Position numbers and translations under genes: made by a program. A stretch of DNA of 62,424 nucleotides from positions 1 through 62,424 of the IMG/VR virus record IMGVR_UViG_3300023210_000033; one strand, 5' to 3'. Positions 4,199 through 60,126 of the stretch are shown piece after piece (position 1 is the first letter of the stretch; every line of letters starts with the position of its first letter). The DNA is from a virus. The notes beneath the pieces were generated by a model. It worked only from the letters and a program-made list of their open reading frames with translations, was not told the DNA's origin and did no database searches.

Positions 4199-6413
4199 AC
4201 TGTATAGAACATTAGAGGACTATATCCCTAAGAACGTACTTAGCAATAAAAACAAAGCTAAGTCGTGGGAGTATGGATATGACTCTAAGTATAATGTAGT
4301 TGTTATATCCAAGACAGGACAAGTGGGTTCTGTAATAAATATAAGTGGCTTAGCAATAGCGCTACCTAAAGAACCTAAAGAGTGTCTTCAAAGACACTCT
4401 AAAAAAGAACAACAATTTTGGGAAAGAACAGACTTACCTAAAGACTTAGATAGAATACAATCTATATTCCAATGGAATGAAATGTCATCTGATTTTAAAA
4501 ACAGATGGGTTGATTACATTGAGCGTGAGTTTGATTATAGGGAAGACGGTATGTTCTTTATGAACAACGGAAAGCCAACTTATATTACAGGCTCTCATTA
4601 TATGTATCTTCAATGGACAAGCATTGACGTAGGATACCCCGACTACAGGGAAGCAAACAGAATATTTTTTATTTATTGGGAGGCTTGTAAAGCTGATAAG
4701 AGAAGTTTCGGAATGACCTATCTAAAAATTAGGCGTTCAGGATTTTCATTTATGTCTTCAGCAGAATGTGTAAACACAGGTACTCTCGCTAAAGATGCAA
4801 GGGTAGGTATACTATCTAAGACAGGTAGTGATGCAAAGAAAATGTTTACAGATAAAGTAGTTCCTATAAATAACAGGTTACCTTTTTTCTTTAAACCTAT
4901 AATGGACGGTATGGACAGACCTAAAACTGAATTAGCTTTTAGAGTTCCTGCTTCTAAGATAACCAAGAAGAATATGTACGAGGTGGAGCAAGATGTTCTT
5001 GAAGGTCTTGATACAACTATTGATTGGAAAAACACAGATGACAACAGTTATGATGGTGAGAAACTATTATTGTTAGTGCACGATGAAAGTGGTAAATGGA
5101 TTAAGCCTAATAATATTTTAAATAATTGGCGTGTTACCAAAACCTGTTTGAGATTAGGTAGTAAGATTATAGGTAAATGTATGATGGGTTCTACTTCAAA
5201 TGCTCTTAGTAAGGGTGGTAGTAATTTCAAGAAACTATTTGAAGACTCAAGTGTAACATCTCGTAATGCAAACGGACAAACAAAAAGTGGGATGTATAAT
5301 CTTTTTATTCCTATGGAATGGAATATGGAAGGATTCATTGATAGATACGGGATGCCTGTATTCAGGAAAACAGATGAGCCTGTGTTAGGCGTTGATAATG
5401 AAATGATAGAGAATGGTGCTATAGACTATTGGGAAGCTGAGGTTGATTCATTAAAGAATGATGCTGATGCTTTGAATGAGTTCTATAGGCAATTCCCAAG
5501 AACAGAGTCTCACGCATTTAGAGATGAGAGCAAACAGTCCTTATTTAATCTAACCAAGATATATCAACAAGTTGATTTCAATGATACGTTGATATCAGAA
5601 CATCATATTACAAGAGGTTCTTTTAGTTGGTTAAATGGAATAAAAGATACCAAGGTAATTTTTAGCCCTAATAAAAGCGGAAGGTTCTTGGTTAGTTGGA
5701 CTCCTGAAAAGAATTTAACTAATAGAATTATAACTAAGAATGGAACTAAATATCCGGGTAACGAACACATAGGCTCGTTCGGATGTGATAGCTACGATAT
5801 AAGTGGTGTAGTTGGTGGCGGTGGTTCTAATGGAGCATTACACGGACTAACAAAGTTTAATATGGATAACGCTCCAAGTAACGAGTTTTTCTTAGAATAT
5901 ATTGCTCGACCACAAACGGCAGAGTTATTTTTCGAAGATGTATTAATGGCTTGTGTGTTCTATGGTATGCCTTTATTATGTGAGAATAATAAACCAAGGC
6001 TGCTATACCATTTTAAACACAGAGGATATAGAGGGTTTAGTATGAATAGACCTGATAAGACTTACAATAAATTATCAAAGACAGAACGTGAGTTGGGAGG
6101 GATACCCAATACAAGCGAATCAGTAAAACAAGCACACGCTTCTGCAATAGAATCTTACATAGAACAATATGTAGGAATGAACATAGATGAAGATTTAGAA
6201 GACATAGGAACGATGCCTTTTTCGAGGACCTTGGAGGATTGGGCAAAGTTCGATATAAGTAACAGAACAAAGTTTGATGCAAGTATATCGTCAGGTTTGG
6301 CTATAATGGCGTGTCAGAAACACCTATACCAACCTGAAAAAAAACAATCAAAAATAAACATTAACTTTGCAAGGTATAATAACAAGGGAACAATAAGCGA
6401 AATTATTCAATGA
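4176..6413 (+). CDS. terL: Terminase large subunit (DNA packaging ATPase/nuclease)
   Basis: 745 aa. This is the motor that packages DNA through the portal and cuts it. N-terminal ATPase: the Walker A position reads KIRRSGFSFMSSA (about residues 184-196), lacking the usual GK(S/T). Walker B is LLLLVHDESGKW (about 298-309), with D-E as expected. The C-terminal RNase H-like nuclease starts around FGCDSYDISGV (about 538-548), giving the first metal-binding Asp. The only start that keeps the full N-terminus is TTG at 4176, 23 bases inside the previous gene, because an in-frame stop lies at 4134. One copy of the 16-bp palindrome lies inside the gene (4382-4397), encoding CLQRH. The portal ATG overlaps the stop by four bases. 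Confidence 0.85.
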   Translation: MQKEGQNKLYRTLEDYIPKNVLSNKNKAKSWEYGYDSKYNVVVISKTGQVGSVINISGLAIALPKEPKECLQRHSKKEQQFWERTDLPKDLDRIQSIFQWNEMSSDFKNRWVDYIEREFDYREDGMFFMNNGKPTYITGSHYMYLQWTSIDVGYPDYREANRIFFIYWEACKADKRSFGMTYLKIRRSGFSFMSSAECVNTGTLAKDARVGILSKTGSDAKKMFTDKVVPINNRLPFFFKPIMDGMDRPKTELAFRVPASKITKKNMYEVEQDVLEGLDTTIDWKNTDDNSYDGEKLLLLVHDESGKWIKPNNILNNWRVTKTCLRLGSKIIGKCMMGSTSNALSKGGSNFKKLFEDSSVTSRNANGQTKSGMYNLFIPMEWNMEGFIDRYGMPVFRKTDEPVLGVDNEMIENGAIDYWEAEVDSLKNDADALNEFYRQFPRTESHAFRDESKQSLFNLTKIYQQVDFNDTLISEHHITRGSFSWLNGIKDTKVIFSPNKSGRFLVSWTPEKNLTNRIITKNGTKYPGNEHIGSFGCDSYDISGVVGGGGSNGALHGLTKFNMDNAPSNEFFLEYIARPQTAELFFEDVLMACVFYGMPLLCENNKPRLLYHFKHRGYRGFSMNRPDKTYNKLSKTERELGGIPNTSESVKQAHASAIESYIEQYVGMNIDEDLEDIGTMPFSRTLEDWAKFDISNRTKFDASISSGLAIMACQKHLYQPEKKQSKININFARYNNKGTISEIIQ
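4382..4397. repeat. 16-bp palindrome copy (TTCAAA centre)
   Basis: GTGTC-TTCAAA-GACAC within terL, encoding CLQRH. Confidence 0.9.
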
Positions 6414-34294: not shown

Positions 34295-34531
34295 TTATTC
34301 GCTATCGTGGGCGTGAAGAAGAGACGAGCCAAGTGTTGGATTTATTTTCTTGATGCATCTGTAAATCTTTCTCGAGTTTTTTTTAGTTAACTCTCTTAAA
34401 GATTTAGGTGATTCAATACCGAGATTGGTATACATCTCACAATCTATTTCCAACAGAGTATCAATCTTTTTCTTGTCGTTCCAAGTTTTATATTCTGTTA
34501 TTTTGTCTATGTCCTCAATGGTATAAGCCAT
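34295..34531 (-). CDS. Small hypothetical protein
   Basis: 78 aa, helical, with a basic middle (LRELTKKNSRKIYRCIKKI) that could bind nucleic acid. No recognised family. It overlaps the DnaA-like gene by 17 bases. Confidence 0.55.
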   Translation of the reverse strand: MAYTIEDIDKITEYKTWNDKKKIDTLLEIDCEMYTNLGIESPKSLRELTKKNSRKIYRCIKKINPTLGSSLLHAHDSE

Positions 34532-35054
34532 TATAAAAATGATTTAATTTAATTAGAACTTCTTTCTCTGTACCTTTGCGAGTGCGTTCAGCAACCATAT
34601 TGTACAAATCTTCAACCCTGTTTAGTACTTTATTACTCTCTCGTTGTTCTTTTTTTAGACAGGATAATTCCAAATGTAGTGATTTAATTTCTGACTTGCA
34701 AGAGAAAACTTCTTTTTTTAAATCTTCTTTGTTCATATCGTACACGGGATTGTAGTTGTTAAGGAACTCATCCATCACATTATCAAACTTTCTTTGAAAT
34801 ACTACATCTGTTTTTAAATACCAAGTTAGATTCTTAGCATAGTGTATGACCGTGGCGTGGTCTCTGTTCATATACCTGCCAATAGCGGAGCAGGTGTACC
34901 CTCTCTGCCTGAGCATATGAGAAAAAACCATTCGTCCATTAACGAATCTTCTTTCCCTGCACCGTGAGTTTATATCACATTCGAAATGATAGTTAACTAT
35001 CTTAGTTAAGGTCTCTACATCAAATGGAATTATTGTGTCTACTATATCTCTCAT
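34515..35054 (-). CDS. DnaA domain IV-like DNA-binding protein (1)
   Basis: 179 aa. Residues about 28-75 match the DnaA C-terminal helix-turn-helix: RRFVNGRMVFSHMLRQRGYT, then SAIGRYMNRDHATVIHYAK, where DHATVIH matches the DnaA-box-binding signature DHTTVLHA. There is no AAA+ domain. The C-terminal half is a coiled coil (KEDLKKEVFSCKSEIKSLHL). Known stand-alone relatives occur in Bacteroidetes phages. It could direct replication to DnaA-like boxes or compete with host DnaA; a second such protein is at 42089. Confidence 0.75.
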   Translation of the reverse strand: MRDIVDTIIPFDVETLTKIVNYHFECDINSRCRERRFVNGRMVFSHMLRQRGYTCSAIGRYMNRDHATVIHYAKNLTWYLKTDVVFQRKFDNVMDEFLNNYNPVYDMNKEDLKKEVFSCKSEIKSLHLELSCLKKEQRESNKVLNRVEDLYNMVAERTRKGTEKEVLIKLNHFYNGLYH

Positions 35055-37080: not shown

Positions 37081-37274
37081 CTTTCGTATTCTTCTGTTGA
37101 TATAAAGTAATCTATCATAGACATTACTTCTGTTTTTTTTGGTACTCTTGATGGGTCGTGGGCAAAGTAACCAAAGTCTTGTATGATTACTTCACCTGCA
37201 TCCAACCCATTAATTAAAACTTCAAACGAATTACGCATTGATAGGTCTAATAGTTCTGCTTCCTCATCTGTCAT
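37041..37274 (-). CDS. Small acidic hypothetical protein
   Basis: 77 aa from the ATG at 37274, which overlaps the primase stop as ATGA; an upstream start at 37397 would lie fully in the primase gene. Residues MTDEEAELLDLSMRNSFEVL suggest a helical acidic start. Ends 40 bases inside the helicase gene. No family recognised. Confidence 0.6.
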   Translation of the reverse strand: MTDEEAELLDLSMRNSFEVLINGLDAGEVIIQDFGYFAHDPSRVPKKTEVMSMIDYFISTEEYERCIPLKELAETLT

Positions 37275-39688
37275 AATGATAGTGATGATTGAGTTTCTAA
37301 TTCGTGTTTGCTTCTCATCCTCATCCATCTTCCTTGTGGGTCTCTTCCCTCTTCCGGCTGAACACCTGTGGTATACAACGCATAAGCAACCAACCATTTA
37401 TAAAACCTCGTCCTTGATATAGTCATCTTAGCTTTCGGTCCGTAGTCAGGATACTCACTAATGAAATCTAAGTATAAGTCTTGCTTCAATAACTTTCTTC
37501 CAACCTCAAGGTTTGGATTCTTGTTATGACCTTCAACCAATCCACACCACTCAATAAAATCGTGAGATGATTCTGCAGATAGTTGTCTAATCTTTAGGTT
37601 AACAAACTTACTCGTAACCAACCCTGTCTTTAGATAGTTCTTTACACAAGCAACCATATAGTTATCGAACATACACCAATCATCATCATCCCAATCAGCA
37701 AAGAAATGTTTTCCAAACTCATCAAGCGGTGTATAGTTTTTGTTGTAGTGTTGGTGTAGTTCTATCTCCCATTTTCTACGAGCGAATGAATTACCACTAC
37801 CCTTTATTGCGTAGTTAGTTGTGATGGCAATCTTAGGAGATTTACTAAATGGTATCTTGATTGCATCTTTGTTTTTCTTTTCTAATGTCAACCCCTCGGT
37901 TACTACACTAAACAATCTTTCAAAATCAAAGTGCTTCTTCACATCATCAAAGCAAAGTATCTGCGTGTCTGCTGATACAGTTTGATATGGGAACGAACGT
38001 TCGAAAGCAAATGCCTTTCCATCTATCACGACTAACTTTTTCATTTGTGATAGTGCATTCATAAACAACCCCTTACCTGTACCTCCCTCAGGATTATCTG
38101 ATATAACCTCATCATTCAATATAACGGCAGGACAATAGCTTAAGTTTTTATATCCGTGCATCATAAAACCTATGGTAGATTCCATTGTCTTTACTCTGCT
38201 CTCCTCATCTGCACAAATCCTTGATATGAATTGCTGATACGTACAACCATCGTACTCACAGATGTTAAACTTTCTATCTATCACGTGGTCTTTCCAAACG
38301 TACCCACCTAAATCAAGGTAGTCTATTGGCTCTACTCCATCCAATGATATCTTTACTGCGCAGTTCTTATAGTATAGATAAGAAGTATCTTTAGTATCCT
38401 CTATGAAGTAGATGTCTATCGTTGCGAGAAGTGTCAGGAAATCCTCTTTAAAATACCTTACGTGGTCTGCGAAGTGATTGTAAATACTTAGGTCATCTAA
38501 ATCTATTAAGTGATTAAGTATGAAATCTTTTATCTCTTTCTCTGATGTGTGGTCTATAAGATTATTAGTAACCTTTACAAACACATAGTTCCTACTGCCT
38601 TCAGGACAAAATTTATAGAAGCCATTGTCCTCAAGAAATTGTTTGAATAGTATGTGTACTATCTTGATTGTACCCTTGTCTGACTTAGTCCAAAAAGAAA
38701 CCGTAGAGTTCTCTTGCTCAACCCTGTTGAGTACTGCCTCAGTTGTAGCACTATCTAACCCTGACTCCTCAAGTTGATAGCGCAATTCTTTTTTTGATAC
38801 ACCTCTTCTTAGTTTTGTTTTTACAGAGTTAATCCTTTCCTCATCCTCGTAGTACTTAGTTCCAAAGTTCTGTGTCTGAGCATAAGCTGAATCAATTGTT
38901 CTTGTAATCTCTGACTGCGGAAAGTCTTGAGTAGCATACTGATTAAGAACATAACCTGCAAGAGACTTATTAATTCCATAATCATTGAATGCCATTGCAA
39001 GTACGTAAGTATGTTGGTTACGCTGCCCCTCATTCATTGGATACTTTTTTGTCCACCACTTTACAAGTATCTCAACCACCTTGTTTTCATCGGTGATTGG
39101 AATACTCGGTGCATCTCTATGTGCATTTACCTCTACGTATTCCGGTTCATCTATCTTATCCCATACAGAAGAGTTCTCATTGATATAGATTAATGGGTCA
39201 TATGATTCGTAACACACACGTGATACATTACTACACATCTTATCGAAGTGTTCTGAATCAAAGTGTTTGTTCAATGCGTTGAAGAAGTTCTTATGATTGT
39301 CTACGTCAGCAGGTATCTTTACCAATGCTTTCAATCCATTACCTGATGGTGAGATGAATACAGAATAAACAAACTTATCTTTAGTTAACTTATCCTTGTC
39401 TTGTAATAATAGTTTTCTTTTTGTGTAGTCATCGAAGTCCAAACATATCAACCCACTATGATTAGTTAATGAGTTGTCTGTTCTCTTCGTGAACGTACCA
39501 CTAAAACATACTGCCGGTAGTAGTTTCTTTAGTTCGTTGCGCTCGTTCTTATCCTTTGAAGTACGTATGCGCTTGATTAAATCTTTCTGCGCTCCATTTT
39601 TTATTCTGTTGAGTACAACCCCAACCTCTCTGTGAAACGGTGCTTCTGTTTCTTTAATGTTTTTAAATATCGTGATGTCTGATGCCAT
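37271..39688 (-). CDS. Primase-helicase (BT4734/VirE-type AEP primase plus SF3 helicase)
   Basis: 805 aa replication protein. N-terminal BT4734/VirE-like primase-type region: SGLICLDFDDY (78-88) and FISPSGNGLKALVKIP (111-126). A PriCT-like helical link follows (EGQRNQHTYVLAMAFNDYGI, about 214-233). The C-terminal SF3/D5-type helicase has Walker A EGGTGKGLF (about 530-538), Walker B LCFDDV (about 577-582) and sensor ITTNYAIKGSG (about 622-632). It would prime and unwind phage DNA; no DNA polymerase gene is seen, so the host enzyme is likely recruited. Upstream lies an intergenic element also present before groEL. Confidence 0.85.
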   Translation of the reverse strand: MASDITIFKNIKETEAPFHREVGVVLNRIKNGAQKDLIKRIRTSKDKNERNELKKLLPAVCFSGTFTKRTDNSLTNHSGLICLDFDDYTKRKLLLQDKDKLTKDKFVYSVFISPSGNGLKALVKIPADVDNHKNFFNALNKHFDSEHFDKMCSNVSRVCYESYDPLIYINENSSVWDKIDEPEYVEVNAHRDAPSIPITDENKVVEILVKWWTKKYPMNEGQRNQHTYVLAMAFNDYGINKSLAGYVLNQYATQDFPQSEITRTIDSAYAQTQNFGTKYYEDEERINSVKTKLRRGVSKKELRYQLEESGLDSATTEAVLNRVEQENSTVSFWTKSDKGTIKIVHILFKQFLEDNGFYKFCPEGSRNYVFVKVTNNLIDHTSEKEIKDFILNHLIDLDDLSIYNHFADHVRYFKEDFLTLLATIDIYFIEDTKDTSYLYYKNCAVKISLDGVEPIDYLDLGGYVWKDHVIDRKFNICEYDGCTYQQFISRICADEESRVKTMESTIGFMMHGYKNLSYCPAVILNDEVISDNPEGGTGKGLFMNALSQMKKLVVIDGKAFAFERSFPYQTVSADTQILCFDDVKKHFDFERLFSVVTEGLTLEKKNKDAIKIPFSKSPKIAITTNYAIKGSGNSFARRKWEIELHQHYNKNYTPLDEFGKHFFADWDDDDWCMFDNYMVACVKNYLKTGLVTSKFVNLKIRQLSAESSHDFIEWCGLVEGHNKNPNLEVGRKLLKQDLYLDFISEYPDYGPKAKMTISRTRFYKWLVAYALYTTGVQPEEGRDPQGRWMRMRSKHELETQSSLSL

Positions 39689-39694
39689 TTCTAT

Positions 39695-39850
39695 GTCGAT
39701 TTAATGTTGATTTTAATTTTATAACTTACTGATAATCAGTAGTCGTGTCGTTTATGTCGTTTTTTTCTTCACCTAATAGGAAGAAAAAGAATAAGTATAC
39801 TATTTACTATAGTGTATATGGAACGAATAGACCCGACATTATTAAGGGCA
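39695..39850. promoter_or_regulatory. Intergenic control element A
   Basis: The 213-base gap before the primase gene holds no gene I trust. It contains GTCG repeats, an imperfect ACTGATAATCAGT inverted repeat (39730 area) and an AATAAGTAtaCTATtta block (39791 area). The same order recurs before groEL (49500-49640). Confidence 0.5.
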
Positions 39851-43964: not shown

Positions 43965-45041
43965 TTAGTCTTGAAATTTTAAGACCTCATCCTCTTTGAA
44001 CCAACCACCACAGGAGGAACAATAATAGTTTGAAAACCCATCGAACGTTACATCGTTGTAACAATCTACACAGGTAGGTGTGTCATTAGTTGGGAAGTGT
44101 TCGTCATCCCATCCTATATCTATCGCTTCGTGATTAATATCTTCATCAACATCTTCGACAATGCCTCTATCGAATAAGGTATTCTCGTATCGTGCTGACT
44201 GCTCATACGATTCAACAAATGGTTTGTTTGAATTACTTTCTTTTGGATTGAAGTAAATCCAACACGTTAAAGTCTTTCCGTTGTTCATCTTCACCGGTAT
44301 CTCTTCACGCTTGTACCATCTTGGATGACCCTCAAGCATATCTAAACTCTTGAACGTGGTATCGCTAACCTTAAACACATCAACCTTTACGTTATGTCCT
44401 AACCCTTTTTCTTTTAATAAGAAAGGAAGTCCATCAACAACCAAAGGATATTTGTCTTGAGTTTTACCTGCACCAATATGCTTTGATGAAGTTAGGTAAG
44501 AGTAGTAGTTACTGAAACCTTTCTTTAAAGTTCCATACACCGCAACCAAGTTGTCTTGAAGTACGTTGGCTTTTGAATACCAAATGCCATCACGATAAGT
44601 ATACAGGTTACGATTGTAGATTTGGAATGAACGAGTCCGGGTGTTGATGCTCACAAAACGTGAGTCATACTTTTCAAGTTCAGTCTTCCAAGTGTTACGT
44701 GCTACGTTACCAAGCGCCTTGGCAAGTACCTTACTATCACACTCGTCAGCAGTTCCAAGTCCCTTGATAGTTCCATTCTGCATTAGAAGTTCGTCATTCT
44801 TTACACCGCATCTGAATGGGTGAGTGTTGGACAGTCCAACCTTACCGACAGTTGCGTATCTGAAATGCGCAATGAATGGTCGCTTAGTTAATAGTTGTTT
44901 GTACTCGTTTGATTTGTGGTATGTTACCTCGAACGTGTCGAGCCATACAATTCCTAATCCGTGAGGATTAATTCTCGCTGAAGTCTTAGCGATTTCATTA
45001 GACATTACATTGTCTTTCTGCTTAATAATAATTACACACAT
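43965..45041 (-). CDS. GAT-II amidotransferase / GGCT / zinc-ribbon fusion protein
   Basis: 358 aa from the ATG at 45041, chosen because it gives MCVIIIK with Cys2, the class II (Ntn) glutamine amidotransferase nucleophile after Met removal; a longer reading to 45107 runs through a palindrome. Domain 1 (1-155): IAHFRYATVG (57-66), HPFRCG (74-79), MQNGTI (87-92), as in GAT-II. Domain 2 (165-255): gamma-glutamylcyclotransferase/AIG2-like, VYGTLKKG (168-175) and LDMLEGHPRWYKR (233-245); the usual Gly-Glu acid is V-D (220-221), so activity needs testing. Domain 3: zinc ribbon C324-x2-C327...C341-x2-C344. Near an amidoligase-like gene it suggests amide-bond chemistry on peptides. Confidence 0.8.
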   Translation of the reverse strand: MCVIIIKQKDNVMSNEIAKTSARINPHGLGIVWLDTFEVTYHKSNEYKQLLTKRPFIAHFRYATVGKVGLSNTHPFRCGVKNDELLMQNGTIKGLGTADECDSKVLAKALGNVARNTWKTELEKYDSRFVSINTRTRSFQIYNRNLYTYRDGIWYSKANVLQDNLVAVYGTLKKGFSNYYSYLTSSKHIGAGKTQDKYPLVVDGLPFLLKEKGLGHNVKVDVFKVSDTTFKSLDMLEGHPRWYKREEIPVKMNNGKTLTCWIYFNPKESNSNKPFVESYEQSARYENTLFDRGIVEDVDEDINHEAIDIGWDDEHFPTNDTPTCVDCYNDVTFDGFSNYYCSSCGGWFKEDEVLKFQD

Positions 45042-45061
45042 AGTGATTTGATTTGCGAGGG

Positions 45062-45077
45062 GTGTCTTTGAAGACAC
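45062..45077. repeat. 16-bp palindrome copy (TTTGAA centre)
   Basis: In the leader of the GAT-II/GGCT gene, between promoter and ATG, so transcribed. Confidence 0.9.
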
Positions 45078-45093
45078 CGACCTCTGATTTACA

Positions 45094-45141
45094 ATTGATT
45101 TATACAAAGGTAAGACTAAATTTAGACATAACCTAATTTTA
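45094..45141 (-). promoter_or_regulatory. Promoter segment with -7 box TACCTTTG (copy 2 of a duplicated segment)
   Basis: The -7 box is at 45105-45112, leading the GAT-II/GGCT gene. The segment is about 80% like 43475-43521, and on its upstream side can be read as IKLGYV-stop, the end of a gene paralogous to 43502. Confidence 0.55.
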
Positions 45142-45143
45142 TT

Positions 45144-45401
45144 TTACCTTTCTTCGTTTGATGCGTACTCATCTGCGTACTTACAGGCTTCGTTGTACGT
45201 GTTCCCTGCCTGTTCTTCTACGTAGTCAACAAACTTATTGAACCACATTACATTTTCTCTGAGTTGCCCTATTGCATCTTCAAGATTGTCTATACTTGCC
45301 TGACAAGAGTCATTGTCCGGATTCCATTCTTCGCTTTGTAGCATTTCGAAATCTGTGATTGCCATTTTAATTTTACTGATTACTGATGTTGAATTTTCCA
45401 T
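45144..45401 (-). CDS. Acidic hypothetical protein
   Basis: 85 aa, acidic helical protein (many Glu/Asp, CQASIDNLEDAIGQLRENVM), no motif. Part of the accessory module between the GAT-II/GGCT gene and the 178-aa gene. Confidence 0.55.
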   Translation of the reverse strand: MENSTSVISKIKMAITDFEMLQSEEWNPDNDSCQASIDNLEDAIGQLRENVMWFNKFVDYVEEQAGNTYNEACKYADEYASNEER

Positions 45402-45420
45402 TGTGATTGTATTTAATTGA

Positions 45421-45957
45421 TTAATAAATTTTGATTGTTCCTTCGTTTAATTTTTCTGCGTACTCGTTAGCCTTCTTGCGTGACCAAGTCATATATCTGT
45501 TTGGATTCTCGTCAAACAATTCCTCGCTGACATCATCCCAACAAGATTCAACAACCACATATCGCTCAGGATTCTCTTGGTTATCTATCAGTAACTTGTA
45601 CTCGCCATAGTTCATCGTCTCTTCGATTGTGTAGTACGTGTCACCCTCATTGAATGGATACGATTCGTACCATACCTCATCTAATAAATAGTTCTTGCTT
45701 TTGCATATGTATGCAATGAAATTATCCATATGCTTGTGGTCTGTAAACTCCTTGGTCAATGTCCAAAGACCTTTGCCTTTTCCGTAGCTTACCTGCCCTG
45801 TCTCAAATTGAATTGTTGCTTTCATACTCTGTCCTTTTAATTTGTTTAATAATTTTGTTAGTCTTCTGTCTGTGGTCTTGTCCCACATCCTTGCTTTGTC
45901 TGTTTCAACACCTCTAATGAGATGGTATAGTTCGTCTTTAGTGAAAGTGAATTCCAT
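45421..45957 (-). CDS. Hypothetical protein of the accessory module
   Basis: 178 aa, no recognised family. Helical N-terminus (FTKDELYHLIRGVETDKARM), then a beta-rich, aromatic, acidic part (VWYESYPFNEGDTYY, MNYGEYKLLIDNQ) and a C-terminal NRYMTWSRKKANEYAEKL helix. It sits within the amidoligase module, so it could be its substrate or partner, but the sequence does not tell. Confidence 0.6.
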   Translation of the reverse strand: MEFTFTKDELYHLIRGVETDKARMWDKTTDRRLTKLLNKLKGQSMKATIQFETGQVSYGKGKGLWTLTKEFTDHKHMDNFIAYICKSKNYLLDEVWYESYPFNEGDTYYTIEETMNYGEYKLLIDNQENPERYVVVESCWDDVSEELFDENPNRYMTWSRKKANEYAEKLNEGTIKIY

Positions 45958-45961
45958 AGTT

Positions 45962-46123
45962 CTATTTTGATTTTACTGCGGTTAACTTGTCTCGTTTTAT
46001 CCAAGGATATTCATTGATGTTATCATTGTAGATGCGGTCAATGGCTTCCCACTTGGAGTGAGCCGGGATAACTTTGATTAGCTTCCCGGCATACCTTACC
46101 TTGTAATAGTTCTTGCGCTCCAT
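45962..46123 (-). CDS. Small basic protein
   Basis: 53 aa, starting MERKNYYKVRYAGKLIKVIP. Basic, mixed strands and helix, spaced four bases from the 178-aa gene. Too short for a length-filtered search but reads well as a gene. Confidence 0.6.
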   Translation of the reverse strand: MERKNYYKVRYAGKLIKVIPAHSKWEAIDRIYNDNINEYPWIKRDKLTAVKSK

Positions 46124-46124
46124 A

Positions 46125-46337
46125 TTATTTCTTGAATAGTTCGTGGTAAAACAACACGCTTGACACGTACGTTAAGAACATAAGAAACAAGCACACGATT
46201 ACATAGTAAACGTTGCTGACTACTGACGAGTCAAGGTCTCCGTACATTGCGTACATTAGTCTTGCCGCACACGTGTAAACGAATAAGGCTACTGCTACTG
46301 ATAATAATTTTCCTGTGATTTTGATAATTGATTTCAT
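46125..46337 (-). CDS. Small two-span membrane protein
   Basis: 70 aa from the ATG at 46337; the longer reading to 46409 passes through a palindrome copy. Two hydrophobic spans: LLSVAVALFVYTCAARLMYA and VYYVIVCLFLMFLTYVSSVL. It would sit in the inner membrane. It lies between genes of the amidoligase module, so it may anchor or affect the cell envelope. Confidence 0.6.
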   Translation of the reverse strand: MKSIIKITGKLLSVAVALFVYTCAARLMYAMYGDLDSSVVSNVYYVIVCLFLMFLTYVSSVLFYHELFKK

Positions 46338-46344
46338 TTTATTA

Positions 46345-46380
46345 TGGTTTTGTGGAGTGTCCTTAAAGACACTCCGGTTA
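46345..46380. repeat. Extended 36-bp repeat unit with palindrome (46357-46372, CTTAAA centre)
   Basis: Differs at only a few central bases from 47778-47813; includes TGGTTTTGTGGA before and CTCCGGTT after the palindrome. Confidence 0.85.
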
Positions 46381-46390
46381 TTAATTAAGA

Positions 46391-46702
46391 TTATATTTTG
46401 TGCGCCCAAGAGCCATTCTTGTTAATGATTGTTTCTACATCTTCAACATCTGTCCATCGGATATTAACTGCGGTAACATCTTCAAAGGCTACCTTTTGAA
46501 ATTGAAATCCACAAGCATCTGCGATTATGTTCTTTACTCCAAAGTCAATTACTTCAACCCAATCAAGGTTATCTGTATCGAATCCCTCGGTCATATTAAA
46601 TGCTTCAGCATCTGTGGTGATTAGAATTTCATCTACTCTTTTGTTGTTTGCAAAAATTTCTTTGATGTTGTCCTGTCCAAAAATTAATTCGTTTGTATTC
46701 AT
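46391..46702 (-). CDS. Acidic hypothetical protein
   Basis: 103 aa, beta/alpha, acidic (DEILITTDAEAFNMTEGF, WTDVEDVETIINKNGSWAHK). No recognised family. It is flanked on both sides by palindrome hairpins (46357 and 46778), so it may be a single-gene unit. Confidence 0.55.
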   Translation of the reverse strand: MNTNELIFGQDNIKEIFANNKRVDEILITTDAEAFNMTEGFDTDNLDWVEVIDFGVKNIIADACGFQFQKVAFEDVTAVNIRWTDVEDVETIINKNGSWAHKI

Positions 46703-46777
46703 TTTAATTTGATTTTATTGTTCCTGTTTCATCCTTTTGGAATCATCAGCCGGAATACTCATTCCGATACAGGAGGA

Positions 46778-46793
46778 GTGTCCTCGAGGACAC
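46778..46793. repeat. 16-bp palindrome copy (CTCGAG centre, perfect palindrome)
   Basis: Between the amidoligase-like gene's stop and the 103-aa gene; with flanking GGA/TCC the stem is longer. Confidence 0.9.
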
Positions 46794-46809
46794 TCCCTGC
46801 GTTAGAGAA

Positions 46810-47769
46810 TCATCTCCATCCGTTTCTGCGTAGTTCGTTATCCCACAGACTCTGCTGAGAGCGGTTAGGGTCAACCCATCTCACAACCGCTCTGTTAATC
46901 TTTCCGGTCTTCAAGTACTTCTGAAAGCCTTTTGCGATTGTCATAATCTCGTTGACCTTTTCCATATCATTATTGTACATTGACTTTACTACAGGCAAAC
47001 ACTTCTTAAGCAAAGCGTTATGGCTTCCGTTTGGATTGTTAATGCTGAAATCCAAAACGATGTAAAATAACTCGTATCGTCTCCACATCTGCTTTACAGA
47101 TTGGAATCTTGACACAAGGCGAAATTCAACAACATTACCTTTGATTTGTACCGCTTGGTATCTTGTGCCTCTGAAACCTGCATCCATCTGTAGATTAGCG
47201 TAGCAGTAAGTGTTTGTCAATCTCTTGCGAAATAATGAGTAGATGATTCCAACATTCTTGCGCATTGCATTCGCTATCTCTTCACCGGTCATCCCCTCTA
47301 CACCGATTGTAGTGTGACCACCACATCTGTGGTTACTTGGGCTAAATGCATCGTCAATCACTTTCGTAGCATCAAACATCAAAGAGAAAATTTTGTTTCT
47401 CCAATGTCCGGCAGGTAGCAAAGGAATGATGTTGGTTACCGCTTCATATCCACAAGATGAATCTCTTTCGAATCCTGCGAATAATGGATAAGGCTTTGTA
47501 GCACTTCTGTTGATGTTGTTTTTCTCAACTTCAAAACCGATAGTAAACTTGCTCATAAAATCACCATTCAAAACGCTGATTAGATTCTTGCGGTCAACTT
47601 TTTTTAGCTGAGCGATATCTGTATTCTTAGCACCTTTGTGCAATTCCTTGAATCCTCTGTTTTGTGTCGAATGGTATCCGTTGATAACTCCTCTTTCACG
47701 TGTATTGTAGGCATCATCATTGTTGTAGATGTCTTTGTATTGGATTCCTAATTCTGCATTTGTAGTCAT
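46810..47769 (-). CDS. Amidoligase-like (GS-fold COOH-NH2 ligase) protein
   Basis: 319 aa from the ATG at 47769 (MTTNAELG); a GTG at 47805 lies in a palindrome and is rejected. The pattern matches the amidoligase_2 family of glutamine-synthetase-fold ligases: FTIGFEVE (75-82), a DSSCGYEAVT block (103-112), CGGHTTIGVE (139-148) and RYQAVQIKGNVVEFR (193-207), then a Trp-rich helix MWRRYELFYIVLDF. The paired acidic residues and EFR would bind ATP and metal; such enzymes join a carboxylate to an amine, as in peptide or polyamine links. In the same direction as the GAT-II/GGCT gene; together they would form and cut amide bonds. Confidence 0.75.
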   Translation of the reverse strand: MTTNAELGIQYKDIYNNDDAYNTRERGVINGYHSTQNRGFKELHKGAKNTDIAQLKKVDRKNLISVLNGDFMSKFTIGFEVEKNNINRSATKPYPLFAGFERDSSCGYEAVTNIIPLLPAGHWRNKIFSLMFDATKVIDDAFSPSNHRCGGHTTIGVEGMTGEEIANAMRKNVGIIYSLFRKRLTNTYCYANLQMDAGFRGTRYQAVQIKGNVVEFRLVSRFQSVKQMWRRYELFYIVLDFSINNPNGSHNALLKKCLPVVKSMYNNDMEKVNEIMTIAKGFQKYLKTGKINRAVVRWVDPNRSQQSLWDNELRRNGWR

Positions 47770-47777
47770 AATTCCTG

Positions 47778-47813
47778 TGGTTTTGTGGAGTGTCTTCAAG
47801 GACACTCCGGTTT
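47778..47813. repeat. Extended 36-bp repeat unit with palindrome (47790-47805, TTCAAG centre)
   Basis: Between the 215-aa gene and the amidoligase-like gene; partner of 46345-46380. Confidence 0.85.
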
Positions 47814-47826
47814 AGTTTGATTTAAT

Positions 47827-48474
47827 TTAGCTTAATTGTCCGTTAATCATTGCAAGTACTTCCTGCACTTGTGCTTGAGTGTTTCTTGTAAATACTTCAC
47901 CATTTGCATCGATTCTCCAAGCGACATTGTCACCATTTGGATTCTTAAACGATAGTGTAATAATTGTCTCAACTCGCTCTGTAGTATTCTCTACTGCTTC
48001 AGTAATTGCTTCCTGCTCTGCCTCGGCAATCTGTTCCTCTGTAGCATCTTCACTATGCTCTAACGAATCAAGGTCAATGCCTCTGCTGAATTCTAAAAGA
48101 CCGGCAATACTTCTCTGTGCATCATCGCCATTGGCATCACACATTTCGTTGAATGCATCTACAATTCTTTGGTCAAGGTTACCTGCCTTGATGACCTTGT
48201 AGAAGAATGATTTTTGCCATCCGAATACCTTTAGACCGAAATCTTTTTTGCTCCATTCGATTCCCTCTTCAGCAAATAACTCTTTCCCCTCTGTAGATTC
48301 AAAGAATGTCACCGCCTCGTTTACGAGTTTAGACATCTTCATTGTGTGACCGAATTTGCTCTTCTGAGCATTCTTAATTGAACGCTGAATGCGTTTGATG
48401 TCGGTTAAGTTTAATTGCGCTTTCACCTGTGGTAGGTTTAAGAAGGCTGTTTCGATTGATAATAAATTGCTCAT
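47827..48474 (-). CDS. Hypothetical protein, first gene of the leftward operon
   Basis: 215 aa. N-terminal half is basic and helical (LTDIKRIQRSIKNAQKSKFG, FGLKVFGWQKSFFYKVIKAG) and could bind DNA; a strongly acidic linker (about 120-165) follows; the C-terminus is a small beta domain (TLSFKNPNGDNVAWRIDANG). No family recognised. It is nearest the divergent control region and is probably expressed first from the promoter at 48556. Confidence 0.6.
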   Translation of the reverse strand: MSNLLSIETAFLNLPQVKAQLNLTDIKRIQRSIKNAQKSKFGHTMKMSKLVNEAVTFFESTEGKELFAEEGIEWSKKDFGLKVFGWQKSFFYKVIKAGNLDQRIVDAFNEMCDANGDDAQRSIAGLLEFSRGIDLDSLEHSEDATEEQIAEAEQEAITEAVENTTERVETIITLSFKNPNGDNVAWRIDANGEVFTRNTQAQVQEVLAMINGQLS

Positions 48475-48555
48475 AATTTGTAAATTTTAGTGTTAATTAA
48501 TTGATTTTCAGTTAGTTATCTAATTTTGGTGAGGTGTATATCTTTCCCCTCTGTG

Positions 48556-48563
48556 CAAATATA
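48556..48563 (-). promoter_or_regulatory. Leftward promoter -7 box TATATTTG
   Basis: TAnnTTTG match on the minus strand, with a possible -33 TTG (48582-48584) 18 bases away, close to the 19-base Bacteroidetes spacing. Leads the leftward operon from 48474. Confidence 0.6.
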
Positions 48564-48689
48564 GTCTAATTCTCGTTAATACAAAAGGATTAGGTCAAAA
48601 GTTTTTCTGTTCCCCAAGAAAAGTTTAGGTGAATTTATTTTCGTGCAGAGGCTAAGAGATGTCTCTGTGCATCTCGTACTTTTTGCAAA

Positions 48690-48705
48690 GTGTCTTTGAG
48701 GACAC
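48690..48705. repeat. 16-bp palindrome copy (TTTGAG centre)
   Basis: In the divergent control region, next to the GGAGC island. Confidence 0.9.
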
Positions 48706-48713
48706 AAACTTGA

Positions 48714-48830
48714 ACCGGAGCAGTTTTGGTTCGGGTTATGACCGGAGCAGGACGGGAGCAGGACGGGAGCGGAGCAGGATACGAGCGGAGCAATCGCATA
48801 ACGGGAGCGGAGCAGGAGCGGAGCAGGTGC
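48714..48830 (+). repeat. GGAGC-rich repeat island
   Basis: About ten GGAGC units in 110 bases, many as GGGAGC or CGGAGCAGG, in G-rich purine runs unlike the AT-rich surroundings. Irregular spacing of about 5 to 18 bases. Confidence 0.8.
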
Positions 48831-49008
48831 GCACTATGGACACAGGTACACAGGGCTAAAATAAAACGCCAAAAAATCCGGATGCGGTTATTTTTTTTTG
48901 ACCCCCACCCCTCAATTTTTTTTTCGGTTCTGTCAGCGGCTCGTCAGCGCAGCGCCCCATAGAACCTTTTGGTTCAATATGTCTGATAAATTTTTTGTAT
49001 CTTTGGGG

Positions 49009-49164
49009 ATGAGTTATATCGTAGAGATACATAACAGGGTGCGTGTAGGATTTGCATTAGGTTGGAGTTGGTACTCAATAGATGAGGAGTATGACTACGG
49101 AGAACTTATTTTATTTATAGGACTAATAAGTATAAACATAAAGTACACGTATGAAGAAGTTTAA
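49009..49164 (+). CDS. Small hydrophobic hypothetical protein
   Basis: 51 aa from the ATG at 49009 (MSYIVEIHNRVRVGFALGWS). In-frame alternatives lie at 48979 and 48898, but upstream sequence looks non-coding. A TATCTTTG box (48998-49005) lies within that extension and only four bases before 49009. A hydrophobic stretch GELILFIGLISINIKY suggests membrane association. Overlaps the next gene by 14 bases. Confidence 0.5.
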   Translation: MSYIVEIHNRVRVGFALGWSWYSIDEEYDYGELILFIGLISINIKYTYEEV

Positions 49165-49494: not shown

Positions 49495-49640
49495 CTGTCG
49501 TTTGATGTCGGTTATTAATTTGTAACTAACTGATTATTAATAAGATGTCGATAATGTCGATTTTAAAGTAGAATTCCAATATATTTTTTATAATAAGTAA
49601 CCCTATAAATATGTAGTAGTATAGGAGAAGAGTTTGTTGA
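49495..49640. promoter_or_regulatory. Intergenic control element B
   Basis: Within the 284-base gap before groEL, otherwise without a gene. Shares order and sequence with element A: AATTTGTAACTAACTGATTATTA, GTCG pairs, then AATAAGTAaccCTATaaa. It also has an AT-rich run (49574-49590). Confidence 0.5.
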
Positions 49641-49729
49641 CATAAATATAATTTAGACGAGAGTTAAATAAGTATTATACATCACCCTTATTAGATGATA
49701 AATCTACAATTTATTCCTTAAAAGTTTAG

Positions 49730-49755: not shown

Positions 49756-51360
49756 ATGAATGAAATAGGGTACTCACCAAAGAATTTAAAGTTTGACGAT
49801 GAAGGTCGTAACAAACTTATTACCGGAATTAGCACGATTGCTAAAGCAGTTAAGTCAACACTCGGTCCATCCGGACAGACTGTGCTAATAGAATCACCTC
49901 ATCACACTCACGGAATCACAGTTACTAAGGACGGAGTTACAGTCGCTAAGGCAGTAGACCTCTTAGACCCGACCGAGAACCTTGCGGTTCGGATGATGAA
50001 GGAATCGGCAGACAGAACTGCAGCATCTGCAGGAGACGGAACTACAACTGCTATAGTTTTAACTGAGGCTTTAGTAAAAGCAGGAATTGAAATGATAGGA
50101 GAAGATACCAATAAGACAGAAGTCTTGAGGGATATCGTAACTAAAACAAATGCAATCTGTGACAATCTAAAGAAGATGTCAAGGGCAGTTACTAAAAGTA
50201 AGTTAAAGGATGTGGCTACTATATCAGCTAACAACGACACAACCATTGGTAACATTATCTCGAAAGTATACAAGGACGTAGGCAAAAATGGCATCGTGAC
50301 TGTTGACCGTTCCCAAACTTCCGAAACATACTTCGAGACAACCAATGGGTTAAAAATAGATAGAGGTTATTCTTCTAACCTTTTTATCAATGACCAAAAG
50401 AAAGATGAGTGTGTCCTTGAAGACACTCTTGTAATGGTATCAGATGCAGAGATAAGTAATATACTACAGATTGAAAATATACTTAAACCTGTATTAGGAG
50501 ATAATAAGAAACTATTAATTATAGCACCGTGTTCGACTAATGTGATAAACACATTAGCTGCGAACGTAATGAAGAGGGGAATCAAAGTTTGTGCCATAAC
50601 CCCTCCTTCATTTGGATACAAGCAACACGAACTTATGCACGACATTGCAGTATCAGTTGGTGCAACATACTTTTCAGAAAAGACAGGAGATGACCTCAGC
50701 CTTATGACTATAGATGACTTAGGTAGTGCAGCTAAAGTTATAGTAGGAAAGAACTCAACGGTATTACTAAAAGAATCAAATGTAATTAGTGAAACCACAG
50801 AAGAGAGAGTTAATCAGTTATGGGATGCTCATAACAATGCAGTAAAGAAAGGTGATAAAGAATTTATCTTGTCAAGGATAGCTTCTCTTACAGGAGGGAT
50901 AGGAGTTATTTATGTAGGAGGTCAAACAGACTTAGAACAAAAAGAACTATACGATAGAGTAGACGATGCAGTATGCGCAGTACGCTCAGCACTTGAAGAA
51001 GGAATTCTTCCCGGTGGTGGATTGGCTCTTTACAAGGAAGCTACCTTCGTTGAAGATGCTAATGGTGGGGTTGCAGGAAAAATTTTAGCGAGAGCACTTC
51101 GTGCTCCTTTATTACAGATTTATGAAAACGCAGGTTTGAAGTTATCAGTAGATGAAGAACAAAAACTTATGTATGATGAAGGTACTGAAGGTATGAACGT
51201 TAAAACAGGAGAGTGGGGAGATATGTATAAGATGGGTGTTATTGACCCATTGAAAGTTACAAGGTCCGCATTACAGAATGCAGTATCAGTAGCAGTAACA
51301 ATTTTATCGACTAACGCTATTATAACAATGGCAAGAACATACGAGGAAAGCGGTGATTAA
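49756..51360 (+). CDS. groEL: Phage GroEL-type chaperonin
   Basis: 534 aa, close to the bacterial length of about 548 but without the GGM tail. Signatures present: TLGPSGQTV (35-43), TKDGVTVAK (57-65), AGDGTTTA (92-99), GGIGVIYVGG and RVDDAVCAVRSALEEGILPGGG (401-422), with D404 at the place of the ATPase Asp398. The place of Asp52 reads Glu (VLIES for VLDKS), a change that could alter ATP turnover. It folds proteins in a ring with GroES, probably large virion proteins here. A palindrome copy (50411-50426) lies inside, encoding CVLEDT. Confidence 0.95.
   Translation: MNEIGYSPKNLKFDDEGRNKLITGISTIAKAVKSTLGPSGQTVLIESPHHTHGITVTKDGVTVAKAVDLLDPTENLAVRMMKESADRTAASAGDGTTTAIVLTEALVKAGIEMIGEDTNKTEVLRDIVTKTNAICDNLKKMSRAVTKSKLKDVATISANNDTTIGNIISKVYKDVGKNGIVTVDRSQTSETYFETTNGLKIDRGYSSNLFINDQKKDECVLEDTLVMVSDAEISNILQIENILKPVLGDNKKLLIIAPCSTNVINTLAANVMKRGIKVCAITPPSFGYKQHELMHDIAVSVGATYFSEKTGDDLSLMTIDDLGSAAKVIVGKNSTVLLKESNVISETTEERVNQLWDAHNNAVKKGDKEFILSRIASLTGGIGVIYVGGQTDLEQKELYDRVDDAVCAVRSALEEGILPGGGLALYKEATFVEDANGGVAGKILARALRAPLLQIYENAGLKLSVDEEQKLMYDEGTEGMNVKTGEWGDMYKMGVIDPLKVTRSALQNAVSVAVTILSTNAIITMARTYEESGD
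50411..50426. repeat. 16-bp palindrome copy (CTTGAA centre)
   Basis: Inside groEL, encoding CVLEDT. Confidence 0.9.
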
Positions 51361-57163: not shown

Positions 57164-59845
57164 ATGTCAATTAGATTCAAAGATAGTATTGAGATTGACG
57201 GTACTGTAACGGTAGGTGGACAAGGGTTGGGGGCTAACGCCTTCAACTCCACCACTATACCAACTAATAACAATCAAATAACCAATGGAGCAGGGTACAT
57301 TACTCTTGCTCAAGTACCGGGAGAATCTGATACTTTAGCTACAGTTACAGGTAGAGGTGCTACAACAAGTAGTGCCCTTACTTTAAATGGTAACGTAACA
57401 TTAGGTAGTCAGGCTGATTTAATATTTAAAGACTTATCAGGAACTTTCCCAACAACGGGTAAAGGTTTTGATTGGACTTTAAATAATGATGGCGCAAGAA
57501 TCTATGCAATGCAACCATCAAGCGATTCAATTGATTTTGTTTTTAAGCTAAGGGATAATGCAACTCTAAATGATAGATTTGTATTTTGGGTGGATGACTA
57601 CACAGGTGTTAATGGAGATAGATATCCTCTTGTTATTAGAGGTGGTACTCAGTTTGATTTAGTAGATTCATCTTTATATACCAATGGTACTGTAAGGCTT
57701 TCTAACACAGGTGCTTTAACAAATGTTACAAACACCAATTGGGATAACGCTTACAACAATCAGATTACAAAACTTGCCGTAACAGGTAACGCAACCAAGA
57801 CCTTAACTGCTACTCAACAAGATGGTGGTACGTTAACTGCATCTTGGACAGACAACTCTGCTTCGGTAAGCAATAACAAAATTACATTATCTGCAGGTTC
57901 AGGTATGAGTGGTGGAGGAGACTTCACACTAAACCAAGCGGTAGATAAAACTATTACACTTACCAACAACGATAAAGGTTCTTCTCAGGATATATTTAAA
58001 AACGTAACTGATGGTGTAAGCACTATTACTGCAAGTAGTAATAATGATACTTTAACTTTATTAGGTTGTAAAGGAACAAATGTAACTGTTAACGAAAAGG
58101 AAAGAACAATTGAATTTTGTGTTGATAGACAAACTTTGTCTGTAGTAAATGAAGAACTTACTATAAGCGATGGAAACACAGTAACCCTACCAACAAACAC
58201 CGGACCACAAGGACCTAAAGGAGACACAGGAGACACCGGTGCAGCCGGTGCTAAAGGTGACACAGGTGCTGCAGGAGCAAGAGGATTAACAGGACCGGAA
58301 GGACCTCAGGGAGACCAAGGAGACCAAGGGGTAAAAGGAGACACCGGAAGCCAAGGTGCTAAAGGAGACACGGGAAGCCAAGGGATTCAAGGAGTTAAGG
58401 GAGACACCGGTGCTGCAGGAGCAAGAGGTGCTGCAGGTACTGATGGTAAAAATGGAACTGACGGAGCGAAGGGTGACACAGGTGACCAAGGTGTAAAAGG
58501 TGACACAGGTGCTCAAGGTCCTATCGGTTTAACAGGACCGGAAGGACCGCAAGGGGATATTGGTAAAACCGGTGCTGCAGGTGCTAAGGGTGATACCGGT
58601 GCTGCAGGTGCTAAGGGTGATACCGGTGCAGTTGGACCTGAAGGACCACAGGGCGCTAAGGGTGACACAGGTGGTCAAGGTATCCAAGGACCTAAAGGTG
58701 ACACAGGTGGTCAAGGTATCCAAGGACCTAAAGGAGATACAGGAGCAGCAGGTGCAAAGGGAGATACAGGAGCAGCCGGTGCGAAGGGTGATACAGGAGC
58801 AGCCGGTGCTAAAGGTGACACAGGTGCACGAGGACCTCAAGGGGATATTGGTGACACAGGTGCGCAAGGAAAACAAGGAGACATTGGATTGACAGGACCT
58901 GCCGGAGCAAGAGGAGCCGCAGGTACAAACGGAACAGATGGAGCAAAAGGCGATACAGGACCTCAAGGAGCAAAAGGCGACACAGGCGCAGTTGGAGGCG
59001 TAGGACCTGAAGGTCCTGCCGGAGCAAAAGGCGATACAGGTGCTAAAGGCGATACAGGTGCGCAAGGACCTATTGGATTAACAGGACCTGCAGGAGCGAA
59101 AGGAAGTACAGGTGCTGCCGGAACAAACGGAAAAGATGGTGCGCAAGGACCTGAAGGACCTGAAGGACCAAAGGGTAGCACAGGATTAACAGGACCGACA
59201 GGACCGCAAGGACCTGCCGGAGCAAAAGGTGCTGCAGGAACAAATGGTTCTGATGGAGCAACCGGACCTGAAGGACCTGAAGGACCGAAAGGAAGCACGG
59301 GTAGTACAGGTGGAGTAGGTCCTCAAGGACCTGCAGGAGCGAAAGGAGATACCGGTGCAGCAGGAGCAGCAGGTACTGATGGTAAACCCGGAGCAACAGG
59401 AGCGCAAGGTCCTGCCGGAGCGAAAGGAGATATCGGTTCAACAGGACCTCAAGGTCCTGCAGGTGCAAAGGGTAACACAGGAGCAGCAGGAACAAACGGA
59501 ACGAACGGAAAGGACGGAGCGACAGGAGCGACAGGACCACAAGGACCTGCCGGTGCTAAAGGTAATACAGGTAGTACAGGACCTGCCGGAGCAACCGGAC
59601 CGCAAGGTGCTCAGGGAGCAACAGGCTCGAGAGGAGCAACCGGAGCAACCGGACCTAAAGGAGACACAGGACCACAAGGACCTGCAGGAACTGATGGTGG
59701 TGGAGATGTTTATCTAAATGGAAAATCAACAACTATTAAAAGTCAAAGTTTTTGGACCGAAGGAAAGACACAATACTTACAGATTACTTTTGAAGATGGA
59801 AGCACAACTTGTATCCTTTTGACAAACTGTGAATTTGGTCGATAG
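57164..59845 (+). CDS. Collagen-like tail fibre protein
   Basis: 893 aa. N-terminal fibre domain (1-346) with a start [20 protein letters not shown], then Gly-X-Y from 347 to 844, about 166 triplets with no break that I can see, then a C-terminal cap (845-893, [20 protein letters not shown]). Common triplets are [24 protein letters not shown]; Lys is nearly always in the Y place, Pro mainly in X. It would form a long collagen triple-helix shaft. The repeated DNA makes length change by slippage or recombination likely. Confidence 0.9.
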
Positions 59846-59853
59846 AAATTTCA

Positions 59854-59861
59854 TATCTTTG
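59854..59861 (+). promoter_or_regulatory. Promoter -7 box TATCTTTG
   Basis: Exact TAnnTTTG match after the collagen-like gene and 26 bases before the ATG at 59887, with a TTG at 59835-59837 as a possible -33 element. Confidence 0.6.
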
Positions 59862-59886
59862 TAACTAATAATTAAATAAAAATCAA

Positions 59887-60126
59887 ATGGCAAAATTAAG
59901 TAAGAAAGAATTAGAGTCTATTCAAAAATTAATGAATGACTTTAATCAAGTTAAAATGCAACTCGGAGATACTGTTATTACACAACACAGTTTGATGAGC
60001 AATGTAGAAGAGTTAAAGGTTGCTTATGCAAAAGAAGAGCAGAAGCTAATTAAAAAATACGGAGAAAACTCTGTAGTTAATGTCCAAACAGGAGAGATAA
60101 CAGAGAAGACCCCGGATAAAAAATAA
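59887..60126 (+). CDS. Small coiled-coil protein
   Basis: 79 aa, MAKLSKKELESIQKLMNDFN, one long charged helix, then a short polar tail (GEITEKTPDKK). Similar small proteins are common in flavophages near fibre genes. It may be a chaperone or trimerisation helper for fibres. Starts new transcription unit. Confidence 0.6.
   Translation: MAKLSKKELESIQKLMNDFNQVKMQLGDTVITQHSLMSNVEELKVAYAKEEQKLIKKYGENSVVNVQTGEITEKTPDKK

Follow-up and report, generated by a model that had tools for sequence, protein, structure and literature searches.

A conserved non-coding module beside a variable repeat island at the divergent junction of a Bacteroidota-type phage: a candidate replication-control region

Results

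The DNA analyzed here, referred to as the window, comprises 62,424 nt (positions 1 to 62,424 of IMG/VR record IMGVR_UViG_3300023210_000033) and belongs to a Bacteroidota-type phage with genes for TerL, a P22-like portal, a collagen-like fibre and a GroEL-like cpn60. For replication, it carries a BT4734/PriCT-type primase (37271-39688, minus strand), a Sak-like annealing protein, and a pair of small proteins with a DnaA_C domain, of 179 and 100 aa; the larger of the two, a phage DnaA-domain-IV protein, is encoded at 34515-35054. Replication functions are encoded by the leftward genes (~33-48.5 kb), and cpn60 and structural functions by the rightward ones. The divergent layout assumed in the original prediction was found: the gene of a 215-aa protein (47827-48474, minus strand) lies to the left of the divergent region and the rightward arm starts at 49151 on the plus strand, with cpn60 (49756-51360, plus strand, Pfam PF00118) serving as synteny anchor. 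A fusion of GGACT with a glutamine amidotransferase (43965-45107) and a 331-aa protein that is amidoligase-like by eye (46810-47805) may form a small peptide-modification set (43965-47805).

The nearest annotated record is MW202828.1 'Podoviridae sp. ctfjg026' (TerL 77%, primase 71%, cpn60 60%), followed in likeness by the Flavobacterium phages elemo (TerL 47%) and by Cellulophaga Pachyviridae and Pervagoviridae (TerL 36-38%). A blastn search of the region against named phages returned only tRNA and chance matches, the sequences being too divergent. Collecting relatives of cpn60 and of the adjacent 215-aa protein yielded 106 loci, and more came from a pattern scan.

Promoter-like boxes were predicted from sequence on both sides of the divergent region. 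A leftward -7 box of the Bacteroidota type, TATATTTG, is located at 48556-48563 on the minus strand and would serve the early arm; a CAAATATA-like box is present at the same place in most of the relatives L002-L027. On the right, the -7 box TATCTTTG is located at 48998-49005 on the plus strand, and relatives have the same kind of box after the conserved module described below. An inverted repeat, GAGATG-N8-CATCTC, is found at 48656-48675, where some relatives have other pairing-capable sequences. A second one, GAACC...GGTTC (48712-48732), forms the left edge of the repeat island; it was also found in L126 and L128 and is otherwise lineage-specific.

A copy of a 16-bp genome-wide palindrome, GTGTC-N6-GACAC, is located at 48690-48705, confirming that the island has such a neighbor, and in most relatives a copy lies 190-245 nt from the leftward ATG. 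There are 11-17 copies per genome, those of the window being found at 4382, 11494, 21116, 24335, 32878, 35864, 39861, 41241, 42473, 43934, 45062, 46357, 46778, 47790, 48690 and 50411. The core is lineage-specific (14 of 14 copies in MW202828 read GTGTCGTTAACGACAC), a TTCAA/TTGAA asymmetry mostly tracks the direction of transcription, and the flanks often lengthen the stem. There are hints that the palindrome is an RNA hairpin or a global operator.

The original prediction was centered on a GC-rich island with about ten GGAGC units in 110 bases. Ten plus-strand copies are indeed present within 108 bases (48717-48824), which is the densest GGAGC cluster of the window; at most three per 110 nt were reached in 60 Markov genomes, and at most five in 5000 Markov sequences of the island's own composition. 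Some copies are spaced at 11-nt steps. The GC-richest 100 nt of the window, with 67% at 48742 compared to ~36-38% over most of the genome, also lie here. The poly-T tracts next to the island (48892-48899 and 48916-48924) and the inverted repeats behind the proposed GAACC hairpin (48712-48732, 48926-48966 and 48962-48975) were likewise found. Cumulative GC skew, which had been proposed as a check for an origin, does reach a local minimum at 48-49 kb; however, this is not independent evidence for an origin, because the skew follows gene direction. Averaged over relatives, the skew changed sign inside the leftward gene and not at the island. A second GC-rich, GGAGC-containing stretch (58000-60000) falls into the gene of a collagen-like Gly-X-Y repeat protein (57164-59845).

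At the site of the island, all 75 distinct relatives with enough DNA were more repetitive than shuffled sequences, 66 of them more than twofold over expectation, and in 69 of the 75 the site is G-rich on the same strand. Calle_1 and phi38:1 have G-rich repeats on the same side of the module as well. The repeated hexamer varies from phage to phage, with GGAGCA, AGGCAG, GGAACG, AACGGC, GCTGTA, TAGGTA and GGCGGC among others. L024 and L025 are identical except for one 6-nt island unit, while L009 and L012 share 90% of the module and only 56% of the island (shuffled baseline 38%), and L012 has no G-rich repeat. Since the unit varies, single units are gained or lost and the whole island can be replaced, evolution by slippage and replacement is indicated, in which the exact unit is not needed. 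Judged from these comparisons, the GGAGC sequence itself means little. The absence of the island from relatives with unchanged gene order, named beforehand as an observation that would speak against the prediction, applies to GGAGC and not to the region, as the adjoining module was universal in the relatives compared.

This module is a non-coding element of 135 nt (48863-48996, plus strand; nhmmer profile, E 1.9e-15 in the window) located directly to the right of the island. It begins with box A, AAAACGCCAAAAAATCC (48863-48879, plus strand), for which the consensus across members is AAAA(A/C)GCCAAAAAATC, and continues with box B, GACCCCCACCCC (48900-48911, plus strand). Across members, an A/T tract comes after box B, then TTTCGG, an inverted repeat rich in GC and finally TATAACCCAAACACTA...TATCTAATAA; in the window, the tail consists of an A/T tract, a GC inverted repeat and TCTGATAA. 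The module is nearly free of indels, and 59 members could be aligned over 138 nt almost without any. In MW202828, L039 and L066, box B has a G-run in place of the C-run, while L003, L004 and L028 have lost it.

The nhmmer profile detected one module in each of 119 loci, and a profile search yielded 80 distinct members. At cpn60 loci with at least 1.5 kb of upstream sequence the module was always present, 650-1400 nt before cpn60 (70 matches). Among the long contigs, 41 of 42 carry it, as a single copy per genome; one has a second copy, explained by the overlap of its two ends at this point, and another (G005) has an end fragment only. In every relative with enough DNA it sits between the divergent early and late promoters. 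Modules were also found at the divergent junctions of Flavobacterium phage elemoB (E ~1e-4) and of the Cellulophaga phages Calle_1 and phi38:1 (E ~3e-6), with weak matches in phi13:2 and phi19:3 (Baltivirus; E ~0.1), and in each case the module is oriented toward the TerL/structural arm. Searching reversed sequences as a control gave a single match only (E 3). In Gundel_1, neither the profile nor pairwise local alignment revealed a module.

The distance between the module and the next promoter box was also compared, all promoters in this comparison being predicted ones. It amounts to ~12 nt in the group of the window and to ~100-170 nt in Calle and elemo, and it is not kept in phi13:2 either. 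The constant spacing to the promoter that would be expected of a promoter-bound activator or operator site was thus not observed, and because of the varying distance the module is not simply part of the promoter. RNAalifold detected 0 pairs in the 59 aligned modules; as there is no consensus RNA fold, the module is not a structured RNA.

The prediction had also proposed iteron-like binding sites for replication initiation. Within the GGAGC island this idea was not borne out, whereas a better candidate for iterons with an unwinding element was found ~700 nt to the right. Four DnaA-box-like iterons, with TGTCG at 49496, 49506, 49546 and 49555 around a TAACTAACTGATTATTAATA core (49496-49565, plus strand), form the densest TGTCG cluster of the window upstream of cpn60. 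The iteron unit TGTCGAT(T/A) is one base away from the TTATCCACA box, and TGTCGATAA differs by one base from the DnaA box TGTGGATAA. Next to the array, the nearest-neighbor scan located the least stable 100 bp of the 62-kb window (49579-49678), a candidate DNA unwinding element; in 5 of 6 genomes, an AT-rich tract near cpn60 ranked first or second among the least stable windows. In the zone before cpn60, 62 loci together contain 266 TGTCG/CGACA copies where 29.7 +/- 5.4 were expected, a comparison that overstates the number of separate events as related sequences are not independent. Iteron distances (9, 11, 21, 41, 51, 62 and 71) are phased to a 10.3-bp turn with a coherence of 0.82. Strict iteron pairs are present in 32 of the 62 loci, which makes this part less widespread than the module; beyond the AT-rich tract, inverted copies are found in many relatives. 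The longest phased array was seen in L078: ~140-200 nt ahead of cpn60, seven inverted copies of the CGACA/TGACA type follow one another at exact 10-nt steps.

A second set of iterons, TAACT core and AT-rich tract (39694-39840, plus strand) is located just upstream of the primase gene, and MW202828 has a similar cluster ahead of its own primase (53.55 kb). This suggests that the primase and the cpn60-side tract share control. The 179-aa phage DnaA-domain-IV protein retains the DnaA signature RDHATV.

For the neighboring 215-aa protein, a structural model with pLDDT 82 was obtained. Comparison of its fold with VIA-align gave weak matches to the KorB DNA-binding domain (Z 5.6 over 100 residues), P1 ParB (Z 4.0 and 3.9) and Noc (3.8), so that a ParB/KorB-like HTH is possible, as is binding of the modeled protein to the palindrome or the module. 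Searches of solved structures and of Pfam returned nothing convincing, neither a sequence match nor a database family, and no prophage or host copy of the gene was confirmed among 84,980 genomes. An HTH-like motif of the protein, GWQKSFFYK, is altered in MW202828, a phage whose palindrome core is different as well.

Discussion

We assign a probability of roughly 45% to the reading that the stretch from 48.5 to 49.7 kb is a phage replication-control region that separates the early arm (replication) from the divergent late arm (chaperonin/structural), and, jointly with this, that the island is a replaceable, slippage-prone and usually G-rich repeat spacer outside the module and not a binding array. 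The idea of a candidate origin or main switch is thereby retained as a special cis-control site, possibly an origin and possibly tied to the DnaA-like proteins, with the module and the phased iterons as its parts, and given up for GGAGC as its working part. Likewise, the GGAGC cluster lies where it was placed, but the unit of interest extends to ~49.68 kb and the island is not its conserved part.

According to this reading, a nucleoprotein complex would assemble on the 135-nt module (48863-48996) and the strands would open at the weakest duplex, beside the phased DnaA-box-like iterons (49496-49678). Replication would be started by the module complex, the DnaA-domain-IV protein (34515-35054) may read the iterons, and the 215-aa protein may take part. 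The reading builds on the conservation, spacing, single copy and position of the module, the turnover of the island, the phasing of the iterons and the weakness of the duplex, all of which are directly established. As far as sequence comparison can tell, the module probably helps to start genome replication (or packaging). Several observations argue against replication. Only 32 of 62 loci have the iteron set in its strict form, and the window contains it twice, so the iterons might function as operator or promoter elements. The module itself has neither an AT-rich opening site of its own nor a known initiator box. In addition, the predicted physical ends of the distant relative Gundel_1 are located at the divergent junction and favor packaging there.

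The region might instead be a switch between early and late transcription, at which module and repeats bind regulators, such as the KorB/ParB-like 215-aa protein, that control both divergent promoters. Promoter-like boxes on both sides, an adjoining gene for a putative DNA-binding protein, the genome-wide palindrome copies and the iteron sets upstream of cpn60 and primase would all fit such a switch. We nevertheless consider it doubtful, given that elemo, Calle and phi13:2 do not preserve the distance from module to promoter box and that the KorB/ParB fold matches are weak.

Alternatively, the module could be a packaging start or physical-end site (pac, cos or the border of a DTR) that is cut by terminase, with the neighboring repeats being tolerated. 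For Tenacibaculum phage Gundel_1 (Pachyviridae), 322-bp terminal repeats, predicted by PhageTerm and not experimentally verified, are located exactly at the divergent junction (PMC8776804). This phage has a related TerL and its terminal repeat region shares the location, but differs in lacking a module detectable by profile or local alignment. Consistent with packaging, there is one module per genome, invariably oriented toward the structural/TerL arm; the ends of ~6 of 34 long contigs fall within 1 kb of it where ~1 would be expected (worked out by hand from the positions), and two of these begin at nearly the same module column (~102-105). However, end points are scattered, most contigs cross the module unbroken, and several contigs close by exact 127-nt assembler overlaps inside repeats; we regard a packaging site as rather unlikely. 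Inferring physical ends from contig ends was set aside for the same scatter and overlaps and for one fold-back chimera (L008/G005), leaving packaging as a weak alternative. At its left end, L008 (IMGVR_UViG_3300028025_001987) turns back on itself at the G-rich repeat and continues as an inverted copy of the flanking gene, probably a chimera of assembly or amplification.

A role of the GGAGC units as iterons of a replication initiator is very improbable, and they were rejected as a conserved iteron: ten copies far above chance, some at 11-nt steps, would suit such a role, but the unit differs in each relative, can be missing even from close ones and changes by slippage, as the pairs L024/L025 and L009/L012 illustrate. 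An iteron origin would be expected to keep one conserved unit in multiple copies among relatives, which the island does not do. The suggestion that the island or the module is a structured RNA, prompted by the hairpin-forming GAACC repeats, has next to nothing in its favor and was rejected as well, since the island folds in an ordinary manner (z -0.84 and +0.87 by strand; DNA fold z -0.24), no covarying or consensus pair was detected in 59 modules and Rfam matched tRNA only.

In comparison with known systems, the array at 49.5 kb resembles iteron origins of plasmids and phages and oriC-like DnaA-box origins: short direct repeats in helical phase, conserved in relatives, stand beside an AT-rich weak duplex, repeats also lie upstream of a replication gene (primase), and phage proteins with a DnaA DNA-binding domain are encoded. 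It differs in that the array is located at 49.5 kb and not in the GGAGC island, and in its unit, which deviates by one base from the TTATCCACA box. To our knowledge, the known iteron origins have no counterpart of the conserved module. The junction of Elemovirus and Callevirus (Pervagoviridae) has the same module at the same map position with the same orientation toward the TerL arm, whereas neither a GGAGC array nor a TGTCG iteron array was noticed there and module identity is low outside boxes A and B.

In the papers searched, among them literature on crAss-like, Cellulophaga and Elemovirus phages, no described origin or packaging site was found for these abundant aquatic Bacteroidota phages. 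Conceivably, and at slightly less than even odds in our estimate, the module represents an undescribed origin or packaging signal common to two or more named taxa among the Bacteroidota podoviruses (Elemovirus and Pervagoviridae, possibly also Pachyviridae) and very many environmental relatives, paired with a repeat that is renewed in each phage and whose function, if any, would rest on spacing or strand composition, independent of the repeat sequence. The locus illustrates clearly how a repeat can turn over beside a frozen cis-element. As cultured phages carry the module (elemo, host Flavobacterium sp. BAL314; phi38:1 and Calle, both on Cellulophaga), its role can be tested at the bench, and it provides a DNA marker by which such genomes can be oriented and recognized in metagenomes.
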